From Polyangiaceae bacterium (GTDB lineage: Bacteria; Myxococcota_A; Polyangia; Polyangiales; Polyangiaceae): a stretch of DNA of 45,753 nt. The DNA lies in contig JAICQO010000050.1 of NCBI GenBank assembly GCA_025937835.1, positions 1-45,753 on the forward strand, in the 5' to 3' direction. A model generated the notes under the pieces. That model was not told the DNA's origin and searched no databases. It saw nothing but the letters and a program-made list of their open reading frames with translations. This document shows, piece by piece, positions 4,120 to 12,861 of this stretch (position 1 is the first letter of the stretch; every line of letters begins with the position of its first letter). The position numbers and the translations under genes are program-made.

Positions 4120-5478
4120 CTAACCCGGGGCTTGTTCAATCACGGCCTGGGCCGCGGCCCTCCGCTCGTTCTCGCGCGAGATGGCCAGGACCAACCACAG
4201 CCAGACGCCAGTGAGGACGAGATTCAGCACCGCGAACACGCGCACTCCGAGGCCCATCGTGGCCGAAAGCAGCAGCACGAACCCCGCCGAGGTCACGTCG
4301 CCGAACCGCACGCAGAACGAATCCACGGCTTGCTTGGCCTTGTATTTGGCTTCGGTGCTCGTCGGCAGCCACAGCATGTTGCGGGCCGTGTTGTTGAACG
4401 AATAGTCGGAAGAGTTCTCGAGGATCTTGCCGATCCGGAGCACCCCCAGCACGGGCAGGATCGCCACGCTGAGCGCGTCACCGAGCGCGATCACCGGCAG
4501 CACCAGCAGCGCGGCCTTCACGCCGCCGCGCTTGACGAGGCGCGAGACCACGAGCGTCTGCAAGAGCACCGTGAGGGTGTTGGTGATCAGGTAGAAGTCC
4601 GCGTACTGCTCGCTGATGTACTGGCCGATCTCGCCCTTGGCGATGGCGCCCTGGTCGGCGAGCTCTCGAGCTACGCCGACGAACAGCTTGGACAACATGA
4701 ACTCGCCGTTGGTGTTGACGAGCGTGAACACCACCGTAAACGCCGCGATCAGCCCGAGATAGCGGTCGCTGCGCAAGAGCTCGAACGCCCCGGCGCGGTC
4801 CGCCGCGGGCTTCTCGGCGACCGCGTGCTCCGGCGCGACTTTCTTGCGTAGCCGGTACACGACCGAGCCGAGCGCGGCCGAGGCCAAGAGCAGCGCGGCG
4901 CTCACCAGCATCAGCGTGTAATTCTCGAAGATACGCACCAGCAATGCAGCGACCAGGCTGCCGAGAAACGCACCGACGGTTTGGCCGATGCCAACCAGCG
5001 GGAACAGGCGCTTGCCCTCCTCGACCGAGTACAGATCGTTCGCCAGCGCCCAGAACTGCGCGACGATCATCATGTTGAAGATGCCGTGCCACAGGTAAAA
5101 CACGATGCCGAGCTTCGACGACAGCGCCGGCACCGAGTGGGCGAGCGAGAACAGCAGCAGGTGCGAAGCGAAGAACAGCGTGACGCTCACCACCAGGCGA
5201 AGCTTCGGAACTCTGTCCGCGTAGCGCGCATAAGCCGGCACGGCGAAGACGAGCGACGCGGCGATCGCCGCGCCGACGTAGCTCTTGTACTCGGCGCCGG
5301 ACGGGCCCATGGACAGGATCAGCCCGTCGCGCACCGGCTTCAGGATCAGCGACGCGGTCAGGATCAGGCACACGTTCAGCGCCAAGAGCAGCGCTGCAAT
5401 GCCTTCCCCGGCTCGAACTTCGGTAACGACGGCGAGCGCCCGCTCGAGCGAGCTGGGCTTGGGCTGGGTGTCGGTCAT
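4120..5478 (-). CDS. Tlc/NTT-like major facilitator protein (nucleotide transporter family)
   Basis: A polytopic inner-membrane protein of about 452 residues with roughly 11-12 hydrophobic segments. The N-terminal segment LILKPVRDGLILS is the kind of Lys-Pro-x-Arg-Asp element seen in the ADP/ATP carrier-like (Tlc/NTT) branch of the MFS, and FWALANDLYSVEEGKRLFPLVGIG is also typical. True Tlc proteins exchange ATP for ADP in intracellular bacteria and plastids; related proteins in free-living bacteria have no established substrate. It is divergent from another protein of the same type at 5628, across 150 bp. A TTG start at 5496 would add six residues; ATG at 5478 is preferred. Confidence 0.85.
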   Translation of the reverse strand: MTDTQPKPSSLERALAVVTEVRAGEGIAALLLALNVCLILTASLILKPVRDGLILSMGPSGAEYKSYVGAAIAASLVFAVPAYARYADRVPKLRLVVSVTLFFASHLLLFSLAHSVPALSSKLGIVFYLWHGIFNMMIVAQFWALANDLYSVEEGKRLFPLVGIGQTVGAFLGSLVAALLVRIFENYTLMLVSAALLLASAALGSVVYRLRKKVAPEHAVAEKPAADRAGAFELLRSDRYLGLIAAFTVVFTLVNTNGEFMLSKLFVGVARELADQGAIAKGEIGQYISEQYADFYLITNTLTVLLQTLVVSRLVKRGGVKAALLVLPVIALGDALSVAILPVLGVLRIGKILENSSDYSFNNTARNMLWLPTSTEAKYKAKQAVDSFCVRFGDVTSAGFVLLLSATMGLGVRVFAVLNLVLTGVWLWLVLAISRENERRAAAQAVIEQAPG

Positions 5479-5581
5479 AGCGGGGGGTGGTTCCAACGGC
5501 AGCGCCCTGGGCGCAGGTCCCGAGGAAGCGGGGCAGCCGCAGACGAGTCGCGTCGCCGTGAGAAAAGCTGATCCGCGGGGG

Positions 5582-5627: not shown

Positions 5628-7793
5628 ATGCGCCCAGATCAATGGCGGCGACAGCCGGGCCCCGTGGCCCTCGCCGCGCTTTGTGCGGCGCTGATGATCT
5701 GTCATCAGGTGGTCGCCAAGGCGCTGCGCGACGCGCTGTTTCTGTCGGCGTTCCCGAGCGCGGATCTTCCGAAGGCGATGCTGGCGGCGGCGCTGCTCGG
5801 CGTCCCGAGCGTGCTCGCGGCCGCGAACGCGATGGGGCGAGTCGGTCCCGGGCGGCTCGTGCCCGGATTGATCCTCGCGAGCGCGACGATCTACGCTGTC
5901 GAGTTCTTGACCATCGAGCGCTGGCCAGGGCCCACGGCGGTGCTCGTGTACCTCCACGTCTCGGTCGGCGGCGCGCTCACGATCAGCGGCTTCTGGTCGG
6001 TAGTGAACGAGCGCTTCGATCCGCACAGCGCGCGCCGCGCGATCGCCATCATCACGGGTGGAGCCGCGCTCGGCGGTCTGGGGGGCGGGCTGCTCGGGCG
6101 CTCCCTGGGCGAGCTCGGCGCGAAGGCCATGTTGCTTGCGCTGGTGACGCTCGGCGCGATGGCCGCGCTCTTGGTGCTGCGGCTCGGCCAAGGGTCGAGC
6201 GCGTCGCTGCTCTCGACGCGCGCCGCTTCGGCGATCGTCAGCTTGCGCGAGTCGTCCTACCTGCGGAAGCTTTCGCTGTTCGTGGCGCTGACCAGCTTCT
6301 CGGCGGCGCTGATCGATTTCGCCTTCAAAATGTCGGCCGCGGAGGCGCACAGCGGCGCCGCCGATCTGGTCCAATTTTTCGCGGTCTTCTACACCGTGAC
6401 CAGCGTGGTCACCGTGCTGTTCCAGCTCGGCCTCTCACGGTTCATCCTCGACCACGTGGGGCTCGGCGGCGCGCTCGCGGTCCTGCCGGGCGCGCTGCTC
6501 TCGTTCGGCGTGCTGGCCCTCGGCGCCCCGGGCACCCTCACCTTCTCGCTGCTGCGCGGCGCCGAGAACACCTTGCAAAGCTCGCTGTTCCGCTCGGCCT
6601 ACGAGACGCTGTACACCCCGGTCGCGCCCTCCATCAAGCGCAGCGCGAAGGCCATCATCGACGTCGCCTTCGATCGTGCGGGGGAAGCCATCGCCAGCGG
6701 CTTCGTGCTGCTCTTGCTGTTGTTCCTGCCCGCGCTCGCGCCGCGGATCGGCGTGGGCACGGCGATCGCGATCGGCGGCGTGTGCATGTTCATGGCGATG
6801 CGCCTGCAAAAGGGCTACGTCGAGGAGCTCGCCGCGAGCCTGCGCGCCGGCCGTATCCACCTCGACGAGATGCAAGTCGGCGACGCCACGACGCGGCTCG
6901 CGGTCTCGCAAACGGCGCTCGAAATCGACCGCGCCGAGCTGCTTCGTCAGATCCAGGCGCTGCGCTCGCAAGAGGGGCACGCAGGCGAGCGCGGCTCGCG
7001 CCCGACCTCGGCGCGGCCCAGCCTCGAGCCGCTGGTCGCGTGGCCGCGCGCGGCCGAGCTCGCCTCGGGCGACGTCGCGCGCATCCAGGCAGCGCTCGTG
7101 TCGGCGCCGCTCGAGCCGCCGCTGGTGTCGCTGGTGATCCCGCTGCTCGCGCACGACGAGCTGAACCCCGCCGCGGTCAAGGCCCTGCTCGGCGTGGCGG
7201 AGCGCTCCGCGGGGCAGCTCGTCGACGTGCTGCTCGATCCGGAGCAGCCGCTCAAGCTACGGCGACGCATTCCGCGCGTGCTGCGCTCGGTAGCGTCGTC
7301 GCGCGCGGCGCGCGGCCTCTCCGACGGCCTGTTCGATCCCGAGTTCGACGTGCGGCAGCGCAGCGCGGTGGCGCTGCTGCGCATGGTCGAGCAACGGCCA
7401 GAGCTCAGGCCTCCGCGGCGCCTGGTCTACGAAGCGGCGGAGCGCGAGCTGTCGCTCGACGCGAACGACGAGGCCTGTTTCCATCCGGACGCACTCGACG
7501 ACGAGCAAGCCCTGGCGCGCGGGCCCGGCTCGGCCTTTCACCGCGGGATCGAGCACATCTTCACGCTGCTCGGCCTGGCCCTGGATCGCGAGGCGCTCGA
7601 CCTGGCCGTCCGCGCGCTCGCCGGCAGCGACGCCAAGCTGCGCGGCACCGCGCTCGAATACCTGGAAAATGTGCTGCCGGACACGATCCGCACCGAGCTC
7701 GTGAAGCGGCTTTCTCGCGACCTGCCTCGCAAGCCCGTCGAGCGCCGCCCGAGCAAGGAGCTCGTTGAAGAACTGAAACGCTCGATGGGCTGA
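5628..7793 (+). CDS. Tlc/NTT-like transporter fused to a C-terminal HEAT-like domain
   Basis: This 721-residue protein begins with about 390 residues of transmembrane segments related to the protein at 4120-5478. ALCAALMICHQVVAKALRDA resembles the first helix of Tlc-like proteins, and SGFWSVVNERFDPHSARRAI the conserved middle loop. From about residue 394 it becomes soluble: a charged helical linker (LRAGRIHLDEMQVGDATTRL), then a helix-repeat region from about 497 to the end resembling HEAT/armadillo repeats (VIPLLAHDELNPAAVKALLG, LRSVASSRAARGLSDGLFD). Fusion of an ATP/ADP-carrier-like core to HEAT repeats is known in bacterial NTT-like proteins of unknown role. The next gene starts 4-22 bp downstream, so it leads an operon with the outer-membrane barrel and lipoprotein. 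Substrate unknown. Confidence 0.85.
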   Translation: MRPDQWRRQPGPVALAALCAALMICHQVVAKALRDALFLSAFPSADLPKAMLAAALLGVPSVLAAANAMGRVGPGRLVPGLILASATIYAVEFLTIERWPGPTAVLVYLHVSVGGALTISGFWSVVNERFDPHSARRAIAIITGGAALGGLGGGLLGRSLGELGAKAMLLALVTLGAMAALLVLRLGQGSSASLLSTRAASAIVSLRESSYLRKLSLFVALTSFSAALIDFAFKMSAAEAHSGAADLVQFFAVFYTVTSVVTVLFQLGLSRFILDHVGLGGALAVLPGALLSFGVLALGAPGTLTFSLLRGAENTLQSSLFRSAYETLYTPVAPSIKRSAKAIIDVAFDRAGEAIASGFVLLLLLFLPALAPRIGVGTAIAIGGVCMFMAMRLQKGYVEELAASLRAGRIHLDEMQVGDATTRLAVSQTALEIDRAELLRQIQALRSQEGHAGERGSRPTSARPSLEPLVAWPRAAELASGDVARIQAALVSAPLEPPLVSLVIPLLAHDELNPAAVKALLGVAERSAGQLVDVLLDPEQPLKLRRRIPRVLRSVASSRAARGLSDGLFDPEFDVRQRSAVALLRMVEQRPELRPPRRLVYEAAERELSLDANDEACFHPDALDDEQALARGPGSAFHRGIEHIFTLLGLALDREALDLAVRALAGSDAKLRGTALEYLENVLPDTIRTELVKRLSRDLPRKPVERRPSKELVEELKRSMG

Positions 7794-7815
7794 TTTCGTG
7801 ATAGGACCGGCCCGG

Positions 7816-9213
7816 ATGGCGACCGCGCGAGGACTCGGCCTGTCTATGGCTCTGCTCCTGGCCTCGCCCCTGGCCTCGGCCGCCGCGCCGGATCCGACAG
7901 AAAGCGGCGGCAAGCGGTCCGAGCCGGCACCCAGGACGCCGACCGAGGAACACCCGCGCGTCCCGCCGGACTACGACGGCCGGCCGTCTGAGCCGCCTGC
8001 CCCATCGGGCGCGCTGTGGGTGCCGCGGGTGGTGTTGTTCCCGCTCTGGGCGGTCAGCGAATTCGTGATCCGCCGTCCGCTCGGCTGGGTCACCACCGAA
8101 GCGGAGCGCGCCAACATCCAGACGCTGCTGCTCGACTTCTTCACCTTCGGCCCGGACCGCAGCGGCGGCATCGTGCCGACGGCGCTGTTCGACTTCGGGC
8201 TCCGGCCGAGCGTCGGCGTGTATTTCTTCTGGGACGACGCGGGCTTCAAGGGTCACGATCTGCGCCTGCACGCGGCGACGGGCGGCACGGACTGGCTGAA
8301 GGCCGCGTTCGCCGATCGGATCGAGCTCGACTCGCGCACCAAGCTCGAGCACCGCTTCCTCGCGCTTTCCCGGCCGGACTACCTGTATGCCGGGCGCGGC
8401 TGGGACTCGCGCGACCAAGACCGCGCCCGCTATTCGGCCAACCGCTTCGAAGCGGAGGTCGGGCTCTGGCGACAGCTCTCGGCGTTCGGCTGGTTCAACG
8501 GCTTCGTCGGAGTCCGGCGCGTGACCTTCGAGAGCGGCTCGTGCTGCGATGATCCGGGCATCGCGAGCCGCGTCGTCCAGGGCACGTACGCGTTGCCGAG
8601 CGGCTTCGACGAGGGTTACAGCATTCTGCGCCAGGGCCTGAGCGTCGAGCTCGACACGCGGCAACCGCGGCCCGCGCCGGGCTCGGGCTTTCGCGGCATG
8701 TTCCGGGGCGAGCACGCGAGCCGCCTGGCTGGCGAGAGCGCGCGCGAGTTCGTTCGCTACCGCACGGCGCTGAGCGCGTTCTGGGATCTCACCGACCAGA
8801 ACCGCGTGCTCAGTCTGTCCGTGGGGGCGACCTTCGCCGATCCTCTCGGCGCGGGCTCGGCGCCGATTCCGTTCACGGAAGAGGTGCAGCTCGGCGGCGA
8901 AAACCCGATGCGCGGCTTCCTCGAGGGGCGGCTCACCGATCGCAGCACGGTCGGCGCGCGCCTGGGCTACGACTGGCCGATCTGGGCCTTTCTGGACGGC
9001 TCGATCCAGATCGACTTCGGCAACGTGTACGGCGAGCACCTCGAGGACTTCGCGCTCGACAGGAACCGGCTGTCGTTCGCGCTCGGTATCCGCAGCGCCG
9101 GACGGCGCGACCAGCCGTTCGAGCTCTTGATCGGCACGGGCACGACGCCGATCGAGGACGGCGCGCAGCTCGACTCTTTCCGCTTCGTGCTGGGGGCGAC
9201 CAATGCGTTCTGA
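7816..9213 (+). CDS. Omp85/BamA-type outer-membrane beta-barrel, no visible POTRA domains
   Basis: A protein of about 465 residues with a signal peptide (LSMALLLASPLASAAA), a Pro-rich segment to about residue 65, and a barrel domain. The Omp85 signature is MRGF at 365-368, in GGENPMRGFLEGRLTDRS, equivalent to the VRGF/VRGY motif of BamA and TamA. The protein ends in Phe (ATNAF), the usual C-terminal signal for barrel insertion. Only about 70 residues lie between the Pro-rich linker and the barrel, too few for several POTRA repeats, so it resembles the single-barrel surface antigen group. ATG at 7816 is chosen because AGGA lies at 7803-7806; GTG at 7798 is the alternative. Its 3' end overlaps the next gene by 11 bp, suggesting translational coupling. 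Confidence 0.85.
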   Translation: MATARGLGLSMALLLASPLASAAAPDPTESGGKRSEPAPRTPTEEHPRVPPDYDGRPSEPPAPSGALWVPRVVLFPLWAVSEFVIRRPLGWVTTEAERANIQTLLLDFFTFGPDRSGGIVPTALFDFGLRPSVGVYFFWDDAGFKGHDLRLHAATGGTDWLKAAFADRIELDSRTKLEHRFLALSRPDYLYAGRGWDSRDQDRARYSANRFEAEVGLWRQLSAFGWFNGFVGVRRVTFESGSCCDDPGIASRVVQGTYALPSGFDEGYSILRQGLSVELDTRQPRPAPGSGFRGMFRGEHASRLAGESAREFVRYRTALSAFWDLTDQNRVLSLSVGATFADPLGAGSAPIPFTEEVQLGGENPMRGFLEGRLTDRSTVGARLGYDWPIWAFLDGSIQIDFGNVYGEHLEDFALDRNRLSFALGIRSAGRRDQPFELLIGTGTTPIEDGAQLDSFRFVLGATNAF

Positions 9214-10978
9214 GCAAAGCCGCGCTCGGCGCCTGGGCCTGTGGCTGGGGTTCATCACTCTCGCGGGTTGTGCGAGCGATCGCGTGGTGCGCTTCCCCGA
9301 AGGGCGGCCCACGGTCTGGCAAGACAACGACACCGTGCCGTTCTACACGGAGTGTTCTCCGGATCCCGAGGAGCCGGGCCACGAGCTGTGCGTGCCGGAG
9401 ACGTATGTCTCGCCGTTCGCCTGGGACGCGGTCGATAACACCGTCTTTTTGCCCGTGTCTCGCGCACTCAGCGTGCCCGGCTCGCGCGAGGCCGAGAACG
9501 CCAACGACCTCGACGAGGTGCCCGACTCGAGCTGGTACCAGAACCGGATCGGCCGTTTCGGCATGACCACGGCAGAGCTGATGCGCGGTCCGTGCGAGGG
9601 GGGCGGCACGCTCGACCCCAACGCCACGGCGTCGGGCGATTGGCTGATCGATCAGGGCAAACCGAACGGCGCGAACCCTGGGTTTCGGATCCGCGCCAAG
9701 GGCGCCGGCAAGTTCATGCTCAAGGCGGACATCGCCGGCGAGCCGGAGCGCGCCACCGCAGCCGCCGCGATCGCCGCGCGGCTCTACTGGGCCGCCGGCT
9801 ACCACACGCCGTGCGATTCGGTGCTCTACGTCCATCCCTCGTGGCTTTCGCTCAAGCCGGGTCTGAAGTTCGCCGACAACAGCGGGGTCGAGCGCCCGTT
9901 CGACGATGCCAAGCTGAGCTCGGTGCTCGGCAACGCGGCACGGCGCGGTGATTTCGTGCGCATGTCTGCGTCGCGCTGGCTGCCCGGGCGCACGATCGGG
10001 CCCTTCACCTACGCCGGTGTGCGCGACGACGACCCGAACGACGTGATCCCCCACGAGCACCGGCGCGAGCTGCGCGGCGCACGGCTGTTCGCGGCCTGGC
10101 TCAATCACTTCGACTCTCGCGAGCAGAACTCCATGAACACGTGGATGGCGGTCAACGAGGAGGACCCCGACTCCACGCCCGGCCACATCCGCCATTGGTA
10201 TCTCGACTTCGGCGATTGCTTCGGCAGCCAGTGGGACTGGGACTCGCTCTCGCGCCGGCTCGGCCACGCCTATTACCTCGACCTCGGGTACCTCTCCGCA
10301 GACTTCCTCACGCTCGGCGCCGTCGAGCGTCCCTGGGATCGCGCGCAGATCGACGACCGTGCGCGGATTTTCGGCTACTTCTCGGCCAAGGACTTCGACC
10401 CTGCCGCCTGGCGCGGGGGCTATCCGAACCCGGCTTTCCACGAGATGACCGAGCGCGACGCGGCCTGGGCAGCGCGCTTGATTGCGCGCTTCACGCCGCG
10501 CTTGTTGGCGACGGCCGTCGCCTCCGGCAACCTCACCAACCCCGCTCACTCTCGAATCCTGCTCGACGCGCTCGTGGCGCGAAGGCGCGCGATCCTGGAG
10601 CGCTACCTGACGCGCCTCTCGCCGCTCGCCGACGCGACGGTCACCGGCTCCAAGCTCTGCCTCCGCGATCTGGCGCGGGCTTCGGGCGCATTCGACGCGA
10701 AGCGCTTCCGCTACACGGCACGGACCTACGCCGGCGCGCGGCTCTCACCACTCGGTGAGCCGCCGCTCCGAACCTTGGCGAACGGCGAGCTCTGCCTGTC
10801 ATTGCCGCGCTCACCGGGCGGCGGAGCCGGCTCGAGCCTCGAGCGCTACCTGATCGTCGACATCGCGAACGGGCTCGCCGAGGGTCCGCTGCGCGTGCAC
10901 CTCTACGATCAGGGGCCCAAGGGCTTCGAGCTCGCGGGCCTCGAGCGCCCGGAAACGAACGAAGCGCCCGAGCTGTGA
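9203..10978 (+). CDS. Lipoprotein with a putative atypical kinase fold
   Basis: The 591-residue product has a lipoprotein signal peptide ending in LAGC (Cys23), so it is exported and lipidated. I do not recognise a named family. Reading it against PI3K/HipA/Fam20-type kinases, I find a plausible set of catalytic residues in the right order: Lys174 in GKFMLKAD (ATP-binding Lys after a Gly-rich turn), Glu182 at the start of the next helix, Asp304 and Asn309 in NHFDSREQNSMN (DxxxxN, as in HipA), and Asp335 in WYLDFGDCFG (metal-binding DFG). The helix ERATAAAAIAARLYWAAGY between the first two is also typical. It overlaps the upstream Omp85-type gene (start at 9203, stop at 9213), so the two are very likely made together. 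The kinase call is inference; an inactive structural relative is also possible. Confidence 0.8.
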   Translation: MRSEQSRARRLGLWLGFITLAGCASDRVVRFPEGRPTVWQDNDTVPFYTECSPDPEEPGHELCVPETYVSPFAWDAVDNTVFLPVSRALSVPGSREAENANDLDEVPDSSWYQNRIGRFGMTTAELMRGPCEGGGTLDPNATASGDWLIDQGKPNGANPGFRIRAKGAGKFMLKADIAGEPERATAAAAIAARLYWAAGYHTPCDSVLYVHPSWLSLKPGLKFADNSGVERPFDDAKLSSVLGNAARRGDFVRMSASRWLPGRTIGPFTYAGVRDDDPNDVIPHEHRRELRGARLFAAWLNHFDSREQNSMNTWMAVNEEDPDSTPGHIRHWYLDFGDCFGSQWDWDSLSRRLGHAYYLDLGYLSADFLTLGAVERPWDRAQIDDRARIFGYFSAKDFDPAAWRGGYPNPAFHEMTERDAAWAARLIARFTPRLLATAVASGNLTNPAHSRILLDALVARRRAILERYLTRLSPLADATVTGSKLCLRDLARASGAFDAKRFRYTARTYAGARLSPLGEPPLRTLANGELCLSLPRSPGGGAGSSLERYLIVDIANGLAEGPLRVHLYDQGPKGFELAGLERPETNEAPEL

Positions 10979-12247: not shown

Positions 12248-12526
12248 GTGAGCGTCTCGCGCCCCGGCCTGCTACTCCTGCTGCTGGCAGCGGCGACTGC
12301 GAGTGGCTGCGCGAGCCGGGGTACCGCGCGCGTCCGCGTCGATCACTACGCGTTCGGCTTGGCCGCGGGAAAGTCGGTGGACGTTCGAGACGTGTGCGCG
12401 TCCGGCCAGGCCGATACTCTCGAGTTATCGCGAACCTTCGGGGACTACGCGTGGAGCATCGTGACCCTCGGGTTCTACCTGCCACACCACGTCGAGATCG
12501 CGTGCGTGAAGGAAACCGCTCGATGA
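12248..12526 (+). CDS. Bor-like small lipoprotein (first of pair)
   Basis: A 92-residue lipoprotein with a signal peptide and lipobox ASGC followed by ASRGTARV. The mature part, VRVDHYAFGLAAGKSVDVRD then VCASGQADTLELSRTFGDYA and ending VTLGFYLPHHVEIAC, has the pattern of the Bor family: two Cys about 40 residues apart, then the hydrophobic VTLGFYxP motif. Bor, from phage lambda, is an outer-membrane lipoprotein linked to serum survival; most bacterial relatives have no known role. Starts with GTG. The next gene's ATG overlaps its stop (ATGA at 12523-12526), and a related lipoprotein follows, so the two look like a tandem duplication. Confidence 0.75.
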   Translation: MSVSRPGLLLLLLAAATASGCASRGTARVRVDHYAFGLAAGKSVDVRDVCASGQADTLELSRTFGDYAWSIVTLGFYLPHHVEIACVKETAR

Positions 12527-12861
12527 GGTACGGCGTGCTCGCGGCCGTCGTCTTGTGTTTCGGCTGCACGGGGACCACGCTGCGCTCGGGCACACCGCCC
12601 GGTACCGCCGCCCCAGGCTACGAGCGCCGCTGGCATTCGAGCTTCCTATTCGGCGCCGTCGAAATCGAGGGGCCGTACCCGCTCTCGAGAATTTGCCCGA
12701 AAGGCTGGTCGGAAGTGCAGGTAGGCCCGGACGAATTCACGATCTTGGCCGGGCTTTTCACGCTATTCCTTTACTCTCCGAGCCGGGTCACGGTGGTGTG
12801 CAGCGCCGCAACCGGAACGAGCCCTCCCGAGCTGCCCGAGCTTTCGACGTTCACGCGATGA
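12523..12861 (+). CDS. Bor-like small lipoprotein (second of pair)
   Basis: A 112-residue lipoprotein. The N-terminus MRYGVLAAVVLCFGC is a short signal peptide with the lipid-acceptor Cys at position 15. The mature part repeats the pattern of the gene before it: a Phe-rich strand, a central Cys (LSRICPKGWSEVQVG) and the terminal LFTLFLYSPSRVTVVC, comparable to VTLGFYLPHHVEIAC upstream. A tail of about 16 residues after the last Cys is extra. The longer open frame starting at 12394 is rejected because it would lie inside the upstream gene. Its TGA overlaps the ATG of the biotin carrier gene at 12858. Function unknown. Confidence 0.7.
   Translation: MRYGVLAAVVLCFGCTGTTLRSGTPPGTAAPGYERRWHSSFLFGAVEIEGPYPLSRICPKGWSEVQVGPDEFTILAGLFTLFLYSPSRVTVVCSAATGTSPPELPELSTFTR

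Follow-up and report, generated by a model that had tools for sequence, protein, structure and literature searches.

Fam20C is a kinase that acts after export, so that its donor has to pass a membrane, and to our knowledge the established view is that the periplasm generally lacks ATP. At the outer membrane, BamA works with lipoprotein partners, either the propeller BamB or RcsF. Surface-layer phosphorylation has a bacterial example in CotH, a spore-coat kinase described as acting on structural proteins of such layers (PMC7821199). According to Major et al. (2017, PMC5381601), transporters that fuse an NTT domain to HEAT repeats are found widely among bacteria, have not been characterised and in some cases precede a cyclic-nucleotide-binding protein. 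Omp85 proteins that lack an N-terminal extension have been delineated as 'noNterm' by Heinz and Lithgow (2014, PMC4104836). The locus described here has likenesses to several of these systems, and no title or abstract opening returned by searches of open-access PMC papers describes its gene combination. The comparison draws on computations made here, namely the linkage of the genes in three phylum-level groups, the folds predicted for their products, the residues that these conserve and the lipobox.

The window, that is, the whole stretch of 45,753 nt analysed, comes from a Polyangiaceae bacterium (GTDB lineage Bacteria; Myxococcota_A; Polyangia; Polyangiales; Polyangiaceae; assembly GCA_025937835.1, contig JAICQO010000050.1, positions 1-45,753, forward strand). 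As a first-pass annotation of this DNA had stated, its open reading frames include three packed genes (NTTb, BAR and LIP) and a second NTT-like gene, NTTa, diverging from NTTb on the opposite strand. BAR follows NTTb after 4 bp if it starts at GTG 7798 or after 22 bp if it starts at ATG 7816, and the start of LIP overlaps the end of BAR by 11 bp. The features are as follows.

4120..5481, minus strand: NTTa, single-domain NTT/TLC-family (MFS-like) transporter, ATG at 5481 (the frame may also be taken to 5496); from PF03219 and profile matches
5628..7793, plus strand: NTTb, NTT domain (about residues 1-400) and C-terminal helical-repeat (HEAT-like) domain, 721 aa; from PF03219
7816..9213, plus strand: BAR, signal peptide, N-terminal helical segment and 16-stranded Omp85 barrel, no POTRA; from PF01103 and AlphaFold model
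8893..8919, plus strand: Omp85 RGF-type motif (GGENPMRGF) of BAR; from alignment A2 and sequence
9203..10978, plus strand: LIP, lipoprotein with lipobox Cys23, a kinase-like core (residues 135-475 or so) and a beta-sandwich at its C-terminus (about 475-590); from lipobox, AlphaFold model and conserved residues
9722..9724, plus strand: LIP Lys174 codon (predicted beta-3 lysine); K in 72 of 77 family members
10031..10075, plus strand: LIP DxND...H..RR..R signature (D277, N279, D280, H284, R287, R288, R291); from conservation
10106..10129, plus strand: LIP predicted catalytic loop H302-x-D304-xxxx-N309; from conservation
10205..10213, plus strand: LIP D335-F-G (predicted metal-binding 'DFG'); D335 in 72 of 77

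Adjacency in other genomes had been set in advance as a check, and it was found: of 77 loci, 69 have BAR next to LIP, BAR being the upstream gene and on LIP's strand in 64 of these, and NTTs lie near the pair in many loci. These loci span three phylum-level groups, Myxococcota and two others. Duplicates L035, L040 and L041 (same contigs as L048, L054 and L076) were removed before counting, and the short loci L001-L030 and L093-L114 lie outside the locus and residue counts; L086 and L087 joined the 77 via their BAR match, and without both the adjacency is 67 of 75. Three LIP loci (L047, L059, L070) have no BAR beside LIP despite room, and six of 35 strong BAR matches (E <= 1e-20; L084, L085, L088-L091) have no LIP in the flanking sequence examined. 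Among the 25 LIP-bearing Myxococcota genomes, 16 carry an NTT within 10 kb of LIP, and 23 of their 58 listed NTT genes fall within this distance, with 0.23 expected. In the 48 loci flanked by 5 kb or more on both sides, an NTT lies within 5 kb in 27 and is missing there in 21; among the well-flanked Myxococcota loci, 14 out of 32 have none at that distance, and the LIP residues are intact in most of these. The orders NTTa-BAR-LIP, BAR-LIP-NTTa, BAR-LIP-NTTb and LIP-BAR-NTTb all occur, arguing that the linkage is more than frozen synteny. Both NTT matches of the window's own genome sit in the LIP locus (another search gave NTTa only), and of 282 genomes 134 have an NTT, most of them lacking LIP. 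In four loci (L080-L083) LIP is clearly degenerate; these keep BAR and have no NTT in the flanking sequence examined, a contrast that probably represents a single lineage. It is near certain that BAR and LIP form a gene system, with frequent NTTs, kept in three phylum-level groups.

Inner-membrane retention of lipoproteins follows rules on the residue at position +2 after the lipobox cysteine. The LIP of the window carries the lipobox LAGC (LAGC-A-S), and the strict pattern recurs in 63 of 77 LIPs, in which the +2 residue is mostly G, A or S and never D or K. The other 14 include several near-lipoboxes, two proteins without their N-terminus, and four members of the L042 group (L116, L117, L121 and L125) with none. 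Its signal peptide, lipobox Cys and lack of a retention residue mark LIP as a putative outer-membrane lipoprotein; as predicted, it is exported and carries a lipid anchor, its site most likely being the outer membrane.

LIP had been proposed to be a lipoprotein kinase, with a kinase-like structure as a further check set in advance. The predicted fold passes this check; the sequence shows no detectable relationship to known kinases. The AlphaFold model (pLDDT 71.5, pTM 0.78) was built from 14 sequences, and its pLDDT is <50 in three segments (262-281, 305-315 and 329-333) that surround the proposed active site. When this model was compared by VIA-align, the top 19 rows were all kinases (Z 8.5-12.1 over 204-260 residues), among them CtkA (12.1), Fam20C (11.5), actin-fragmin kinase (9.6), HipA (9.3), the lipid kinase MavQ (9.0) and HipT (8.7), and the first non-kinase row had Z 8.0. 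At E <= 0.001 Foldseek returned nothing, and only the VIA-align second look places kinases first; the top Foldseek matches (STAT5, filamin and others), whose TM-scores relative to the query are about 0.1, were set aside. LIP matched nothing in Pfam or NCBIfam; no kinase link appeared in PADLOC or, with queries of 1, 14 and 56 LIP sequences, among PDB sequences, and a comparison with E. coli HipA by hhalign returned probabilities of 0.7 and 1.3%. Armadillo-repeat matches were weak (best E 0.0043), each adding up several 4-bit repeats, and were not considered further.

The residues expected of a kinase site are widely kept: K174 in 72 of the 77 members, D304 in 73, N309 in 71 and D335 in 72, their equivalence to kinase residues being set by order and spacing, without superposed coordinates. 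H302 of the predicted catalytic loop is present in 61 of 77, and the D-xxxx-N spacing of this loop is like that of HipA. The most conserved element of LIP, above the predicted catalytic Asp, is DxND...H..RR..R, with D277, D280, H284, R287, R288 and R291 in all 77 proteins and N279 in 76. Alignment A7 left out L067, L042, L034, L125, L127, L073, L080-L083 and L076, together with cores <330 residues and sequences >70% alike to one kept; because degenerate LIPs were dropped beforehand, residues 'invariant' in A7 exclude degenerate members. In the model, LIP folds as a kinase of the CtkA/Fam20C/actin-fragmin kinase/HipA type and carries the full predicted Lys-Asp-Asn-Asp set. The predicted core resembles Fam20C and Fam20A (and Golgi casein kinase) over about 234-260 residues (Z 9.8-11.5). 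Unlike these proteins, to which it has no detected sequence similarity, LIP is bacterial, lipid-anchored and linked to an Omp85 barrel, with an extra C-terminal beta-sandwich. Its predicted fold is shared with HipA, HipT and CtkA, none of which we know as an outer-membrane lipoprotein. CotH, unlike LIP, belongs to the Bacillus spore coat, and the searches made gave no match between the two.

The proposal of a barrel with the MRGF motif held up. The motif lies within 'PMRGF' of BAR (alignment A2), PF01103 scores 45.4 bits (cut-off 24) and the AlphaFold model (pLDDT 69.5, pTM 0.65) has 16 strands, features that place BAR in the Omp85 superfamily. It matches BamA structurally (E 1.6e-10, Z up to 23.1); the BamA-RcsF complex (6t1w) is also among its matches, as expected of any barrel that resembles BamA. 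POTRA domains were found neither by Pfam nor in the model, where only helices 68-98 and 101-109 precede strand 1. BAR is thus like the 'noNterm' proteins in the relevant passages of PMC4104836, being 16-stranded without POTRA, and unlike them in its partner LIP and its modelled N-terminal helical segment (68-109). By analogy with BamA-BamB and BamA-RcsF, BAR may be an Omp85 barrel working with a lipoprotein, although BAR, unlike BamA, lacks POTRA domains and LIP, unlike BamB or RcsF, is kinase-like. Barrel alignment A3 was made without L032 and L041. A BAR-LIP gene fusion in L041/L076 (one contig seen twice) was rejected: relative to the window's BAR of 471 residues the barrel breaks off near residue 328, and some 85 residues are missing from the start of LIP, which makes a deletion in frame or a faulty MAG assembly the likelier cause.

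Both transporters match PF03219 (TLC; curated cut-off 21), NTTa with 56.8 bits (E 2.3e-15) and NTTb with 27.4 bits (E 1.9e-6), and both miss the cut-off of 387.2 for the NCBIfam NTP/NDP exchanger TIGR00769 (54.2 and 20.4 bits, respectively). The NTTa family profile matches the solved ADP,ATP carriers 9j3n (E 2.5e-22) and 9j3j (E 8.4e-17), and the NTT-domain profile of NTTb matches 9j3n (E 5.3e-25). By a crude hydropathy count NTTa has 8 peaks and NTTb has 12, of which one lies beyond its NTT domain (about 12 transmembrane helices expected). The functional charges of AtNTT1 are described as K155, E245, E385 and K527 (PMC10654386). At these positions the window NTTa has G, G, N and D, keeping none of the four, with a weak alignment at K155 and a residue at E385 that depends on gap placement; NTTb has L, S, D and E, keeping an acidic residue at E385 only, its K155 position being hand-counted. 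Positions were taken from printed alignments, in which a single chain offset of 84 accounts for all four of the AtNTT1 residues. At K527, 13 of 13 aligned NTTa members have Asp and 12 of 12 NTTb members have D, E, Q or T, which suggests a changed substrate. The assignment to the 'family that moves ATP/ADP' is therefore real as a family match, but with the exchanger charges mostly missing, movement of ATP/ADP is not supported as stated for either protein.

Like the fusions of PMC5381601, NTTb consists of an NTT domain followed by HEAT-like repeats: its family profile matches alphaRep/HEAT and HEAT_2 was found in 10 of 13 members scanned, the window NTTb itself giving no Pfam HEAT match. Some LIP loci likewise have a cyclic-nucleotide-binding protein adjoining NTTb (cluster in 8 loci). 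The link of NTTb to an Omp85 barrel and a kinase-like lipoprotein is unlike that account, whose passages on these fusions mention none. ORF clustering of LIP neighbours gave the four families described here with their shadow frames, plus other recurrent clusters. Eight examples of the latter were scanned and comprised four ordinary Ser/Thr protein kinases (PF00069; 16 loci, scattered distances, both strands), two cyclic-nucleotide-binding proteins, one hybrid histidine kinase (7 loci) and one protein with no match; none was a constant extra component. A defence-system reading was dropped, PADLOC giving no match. In LIP-less genomes, the NTTa type adjoins an exported PPDK_N-domain protein in 8 of 12 chosen loci, and 12 of 17 genomes with a PPDK_N protein have it within 3 kb of an NTT match on one contig. 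From this pairing with an exported protein that has an ATP-binding domain comes a separate hint that transporters of this type work for envelope enzymes that use nucleotides.

The gene set hints at phosphorylation chemistry beyond the cytoplasm. We judge the chances to be evenly balanced that it is an envelope phosphotransfer (kinase-like) system with LIP as enzyme, BAR as outer-membrane partner and the NTTs as suppliers. We infer that LIP would move phosphate, or another part of a nucleotide, onto a periplasmic or surface molecule, be it protein, glycan or lipid; that the POTRA-less barrel BAR would be its usual outer-membrane partner, holding or displaying it in a physical complex; and that the inner-membrane NTT-family carriers would bring a nucleotide or related donor into the periplasm. 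A bolder version, which we advance tentatively, is a new class of extracytoplasmic kinase in which a dedicated NTT exports the donor, a BAR-held LIP of Fam20C/HipA fold modifies the envelope or surface, and NTT plus an exported PPDK-like enzyme is a parallel design in other Myxococcota.

An Omp85-lipoprotein complex for assembly or sensing, comparable to BamA with BamB or RcsF, would account for the constancy of BAR-LIP (69/77) beside optional NTTs and for the retention of BAR by degenerate LIPs. Here the kinase fold would only bind, and the NTTs would carry another small molecule or be loosely associated. The D277-H284-R287-R288-R291 patch, more conserved than the catalytic Asp, and the lost substrate charges of the NTTs also fit, as does the 6t1w match, although any BamA-like barrel would give it. 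We nevertheless hold this reading to be rather unlikely: a pure scaffold would not need Lys-Asp-Asn-Asp, kept in 71-73 of 77 members over three phylum-level groups, nor does it explain NTT linkage far over chance (23 versus 0.23).

Kinase folds are also known to perform AMPylation (SelO), glutamylation (SidJ) and sugar phosphorylation (Fam20B). LIP might accordingly catalyse AMPylation, glutamylation or the phosphorylation of a sugar or lipid, and a non-ATP donor would fit the NTT site altered at K527 (Asp in 13/13 NTTa; D, E, Q or T in 12/12 NTTb). MavQ and the Fam20 family among the structural matches point the same way, but direct evidence for a particular donor or acceptor is absent, and we give this alternative a small chance. 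That the genes are ordinary envelope neighbours with no joint function is highly improbable and already disfavoured by the adjacency counts; LIP loci without NTT, three without BAR and six BARs without LIP would agree with it, but the genes are found linked in each of three phylum-level groups and in many different orders (again 23 against 0.23 expected).

If the bolder version is true, nucleotides would drive chemistry in the periplasm of some bacteria. The LIP and PPDK_N sets make periplasmic nucleotide supply for covalent modification directly testable. Such a system would also give a role to the NTTs of free-living bacteria, which are uncharacterised, and to Omp85 barrels that lack POTRA.

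The open reading frames of the window bear out the three-gene packing and the diverging second NTT-like gene of the first-pass annotation. The Omp85-type barrel gene (BAR) follows one NTT/TLC-family transporter gene (NTTb) after a gap of 4 or 22 bp and overlaps a lipoprotein gene (LIP) by 11 bp on the plus strand:

4120-5481, minus strand, divergent from NTTb-BAR-LIP: NTTa, the second NTT/TLC-family transporter, with a PF03219 match above cut-off
5628-7793, plus strand: NTTb, with a PF03219 match above cut-off
7798 or 7816-9213, plus strand: BAR, with a PF01103 match
9203-10978, plus strand: LIP, with the lipobox LAGC

LIP matched no Pfam family, and no NCBIfam family above cut-off. At 12394-12861 on the plus strand lies a small ORF whose Lambda_Bor match stays below threshold (E 0.0071); on the opposite strand, an aminotransferase ORF overlaps it with its 5′ end.

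We scanned the stretches around LIP with profile HMMs of the four families, counting matches of > 250 bits for LIP, > 80 for BAR and > 100 for NTT. After three duplicate contigs had been taken out, this yielded 77 LIP loci, 51 from Myxococcota and 12 and 14 from two further groups, those of loci L042 and L043, which we treated as separate phyla since none of their listed genomes appears in the Myxococcota search. Adjacency in other genomes, named earlier as a check on a shared system, was found for BAR and LIP in 69 of the 77 loci across all three groups (67 of 75 without L086 and L087, both reached via a BAR match); BAR precedes LIP in the same orientation in 64, and the matched regions are < 300 bp apart in 66. 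Among the eight loci without BAR, L042, L067 and L131 have a contig end close to LIP, L047, L059 and L070 have enough flank, yet no BAR, and L058 is ambiguous, since its upstream flank is 1.5 kb long and downstream there is just a BAR fragment scoring 54 bits. The eighth is L076; a single frame (L041/L076:1236-3968) joins a truncated barrel to a LIP without its N-terminus, which is probably a deletion or an assembly fault rather than a true fusion.

Conversely, 29 of 35 BAR matches at E <= 1e-20 have LIP alongside, and six (L084, L085, L088-L091) have none in the stretch examined. L084 has a transporter of the NTTb type close by, L085 has an NTTa, and in L089 a transporter lies about 11 kb off. 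Three genomes (G239, G187 and G214) each hold a BAR without LIP plus a LIP without BAR, which may represent split pairs. A single-sequence search of 282 Myxococcota genomes detected a LIP relative in 33, and in 25 the match was strong (E <= 1e-60). Profile searches recovered LIP from 32 of the 282, from 10 of the 39 L042-phylum genomes and from 7 of 193 drawn from the L043 phylum. BAR at E <= 1e-20 was present in 23 of the 282, all of which belong to the 25 with strong LIP.

The claim of an outer-membrane barrel agrees with both the PF01103 match and the predicted BAR model (pLDDT 69.5, pTM 0.65), which forms a 16-stranded barrel preceded by helices, lacks a POTRA domain and matched the barrels of BamA, the Sam50 complex and TamA (best E 1.6e-10, Z up to 23.1). 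As an Omp85 barrel without POTRA, BAR fits the 'noNterm' class characterized in PMC4104836.

A strict lipobox pattern is present in 63 of the 77 LIPs, none of which has Asp or Lys at +2; among the other 14, several have a near-lipobox, two are missing the N-terminus, and four members of the L042 group have no lipobox. Sequence methods linked LIP to no kinase. Its AlphaFold model, built from 14 sequences (mean pLDDT 71.5, pTM 0.78), has two lobes, one small and rich in beta structure and the other helical, plus a beta-sandwich at the C-terminus. At E <= 0.001 Foldseek returned no match to this model, and in a second look with VIA-align the first 19 rows were kinases, aligned over 204-260 residues: CtkA (Z 12.1), Fam20C (11.5; Fam20A is listed after it), actin-fragmin kinase (9.6), HipA (9.3), MavQ (9.0) and HipT (8.7) were among them, and the first non-kinase row had Z 8.0. 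By VIA-align, then, the predicted lipoprotein structure is kinase-like, as the first-pass annotation had supposed. Residues K174, D304, N309 and D335 are retained in 72, 73, 71 and 72 of the 77 LIPs, respectively, and their order and D-xxxx-N spacing fit the kinase Lys, catalytic Asp, Asn and DFG Asp; in the predicted catalytic loop region the pLDDT falls below 50. More conserved than these predicted catalytic residues, and near-absolute among the 77, is the motif D277-x-N279-D280...H284..R287-R288..R291 (window 10031-10075, LIP residues 277-291), for which we know of no counterpart.

The catalytic set is lost (e.g. R-L-E-R-G at 153, 174, 304, 309 and 335) in four pseudokinase-like LIPs:

L080:7619-9244
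L081:7573-9060
L082:7953-9470
L083:3006-4499

BAR still adjoins these and no NTT lies in the stretch examined, a contrast that is weak because the four probably form one subfamily with a single loss event and because many intact LIPs also have no NTT nearby. Other deviants are L073 (at 153 and 174), L078 (at 309) and the incomplete L125.

In 48 loci the flank measures 5 kb or more on each side, and 27 of these have an NTT within 5 kb of LIP (18 of 32 in Myxococcota, 6 of 9 and 3 of 7 for the two further phyla). Gene orders include NTTa-BAR-LIP (e.g. L031, L033, L036), BAR-LIP-NTTa (L050, L051, L057), BAR-LIP-NTTb (L069, L071), LIP-BAR-NTTb (L065) and BAR-LIP-NTTa-NTTb (L115, L120), where single NTTa or NTTb labels are unreliable because the two profiles recognise each other; long proteins are of the NTTb type. 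Across the 25 strong-LIP Myxococcota genomes, 23 of the 58 listed NTT genes are no more than 10 kb from LIP, where uniform placement would give 0.23, and 16 genomes have such a gene; in the window's genome, both NTT matches found sit in this locus. We judged linkage by this ratio and by the variety of gene orders, setting aside the Poisson P, which ignores shared ancestry.

The assignment to the family that moves ATP/ADP stood as regards family (PF03219; solved carriers 9j3n and 9j3j matched at E 2.5e-22 and 8.4e-17 by the NTTa profile and at 5.3e-25 and 3.3e-21 by that of the NTTb membrane domain), whereas the exchanger charges are mostly absent and both proteins fall far below the NCBIfam exchanger cut-off. 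PMC10654386 gives K155, E245, E385 and K527 as important residues of AtNTT1; by a single offset (84) these are K71, E161, E301 and K443 of chain 9j3j. There, the window's NTTa has G, G, N and D (K155 being weakly aligned and E385 dependent on gap placement) and its NTTb L, S, D and E (the K155 position counted by hand). At the K527 position all 13 aligned NTTa members carry D, and each of the 12 aligned NTTb members carries D, E, Q or T. NTTa D395 (the K527 position), D359 and E355, numbered by residue in the window's NTTa, are acidic and invariant in the 13-member alignment; at this position, D395 hints at a changed substrate or coupling. Given the altered residues and the missed cut-off, NTTa and NTTb are carriers of the NTT family whose binding site is altered, and ATP/ADP exchange should not be taken for granted.

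NTTb is a transporter of the NTT-HEAT type reported in PMC5381601, where some such genes are followed by one for a cyclic-nucleotide-binding protein, as NTTb is in some loci here. One protein family adjoins NTTb in eight loci (L033, L037, L045, L062, L064, L068, L069, L071), and both members scanned (L045, L062) contain cyclic-nucleotide-binding domains; the window has no such protein after NTTb.

We also picked 12 loci from strong NTTa matches in Myxococcota genomes without strong LIP. Eight of these have, near NTTa, a roughly 1000-aa protein that combines PPDK_N with PEP-utilizers domains (Pfam-confirmed in six: L143, L144, L145, L147, L149, L150), and nine have a beta-lactamase-fold protein (PF13354), one of them weak. 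Judged by eye, six of the eight PPDK-like proteins carry a Sec-type signal peptide; the other two are truncated by the end of the contig or stretch. The neighbourhoods in question are:

L142-L150, e.g. L143:2160-8922 and L144:5653-12527: neighbourhoods of NTTa, an exported beta-lactamase-fold protein and an exported PPDK-like protein

At E <= 1e-60 the PPDK-like protein occurs in 17 of 282 genomes, none among the 25 with strong LIP, and in none of the LIP loci examined. It shares a contig with an NTT match < 3 kb away in 12 of the 17 (the G148 match is weak, 2.6e-12) and is on a different contig in five. This neighbourhood is a candidate second periplasmic nucleotide-using system. Two unrelated exported, apparently nucleotide-using proteins adjoin one transporter type, which by guilt by association favours donor supply as the role of NTTa-type transporters.

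Computation shows the linkage, predicted folds, conserved residues and export signals. From these we envisage that the NTTs would deliver nucleotide and that LIP would catalyse transfer from it, acting at the outer membrane with BAR to modify some envelope target. We put the odds on a phosphotransfer system along these lines at about even. That BAR and LIP instead form a non-catalytic Omp85-lipoprotein pair strikes us as rather unlikely, and that the locus performs transfer chemistry of another kind as somewhat less likely still.

A search of the open-access literature did not find this gene combination; its parts belong to known superfamilies, and the system, as well as LIP as a sequence family, appears undescribed. 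Copy numbers are lower bounds because the genome searches score the best few candidates per genome: G177, a 10.3-Mb single contig, has at least four LIP paralogues, and G149 has at least four in the search listing besides the two of L086 and L087. Such multiplicity suggests that targets differ within one cell.
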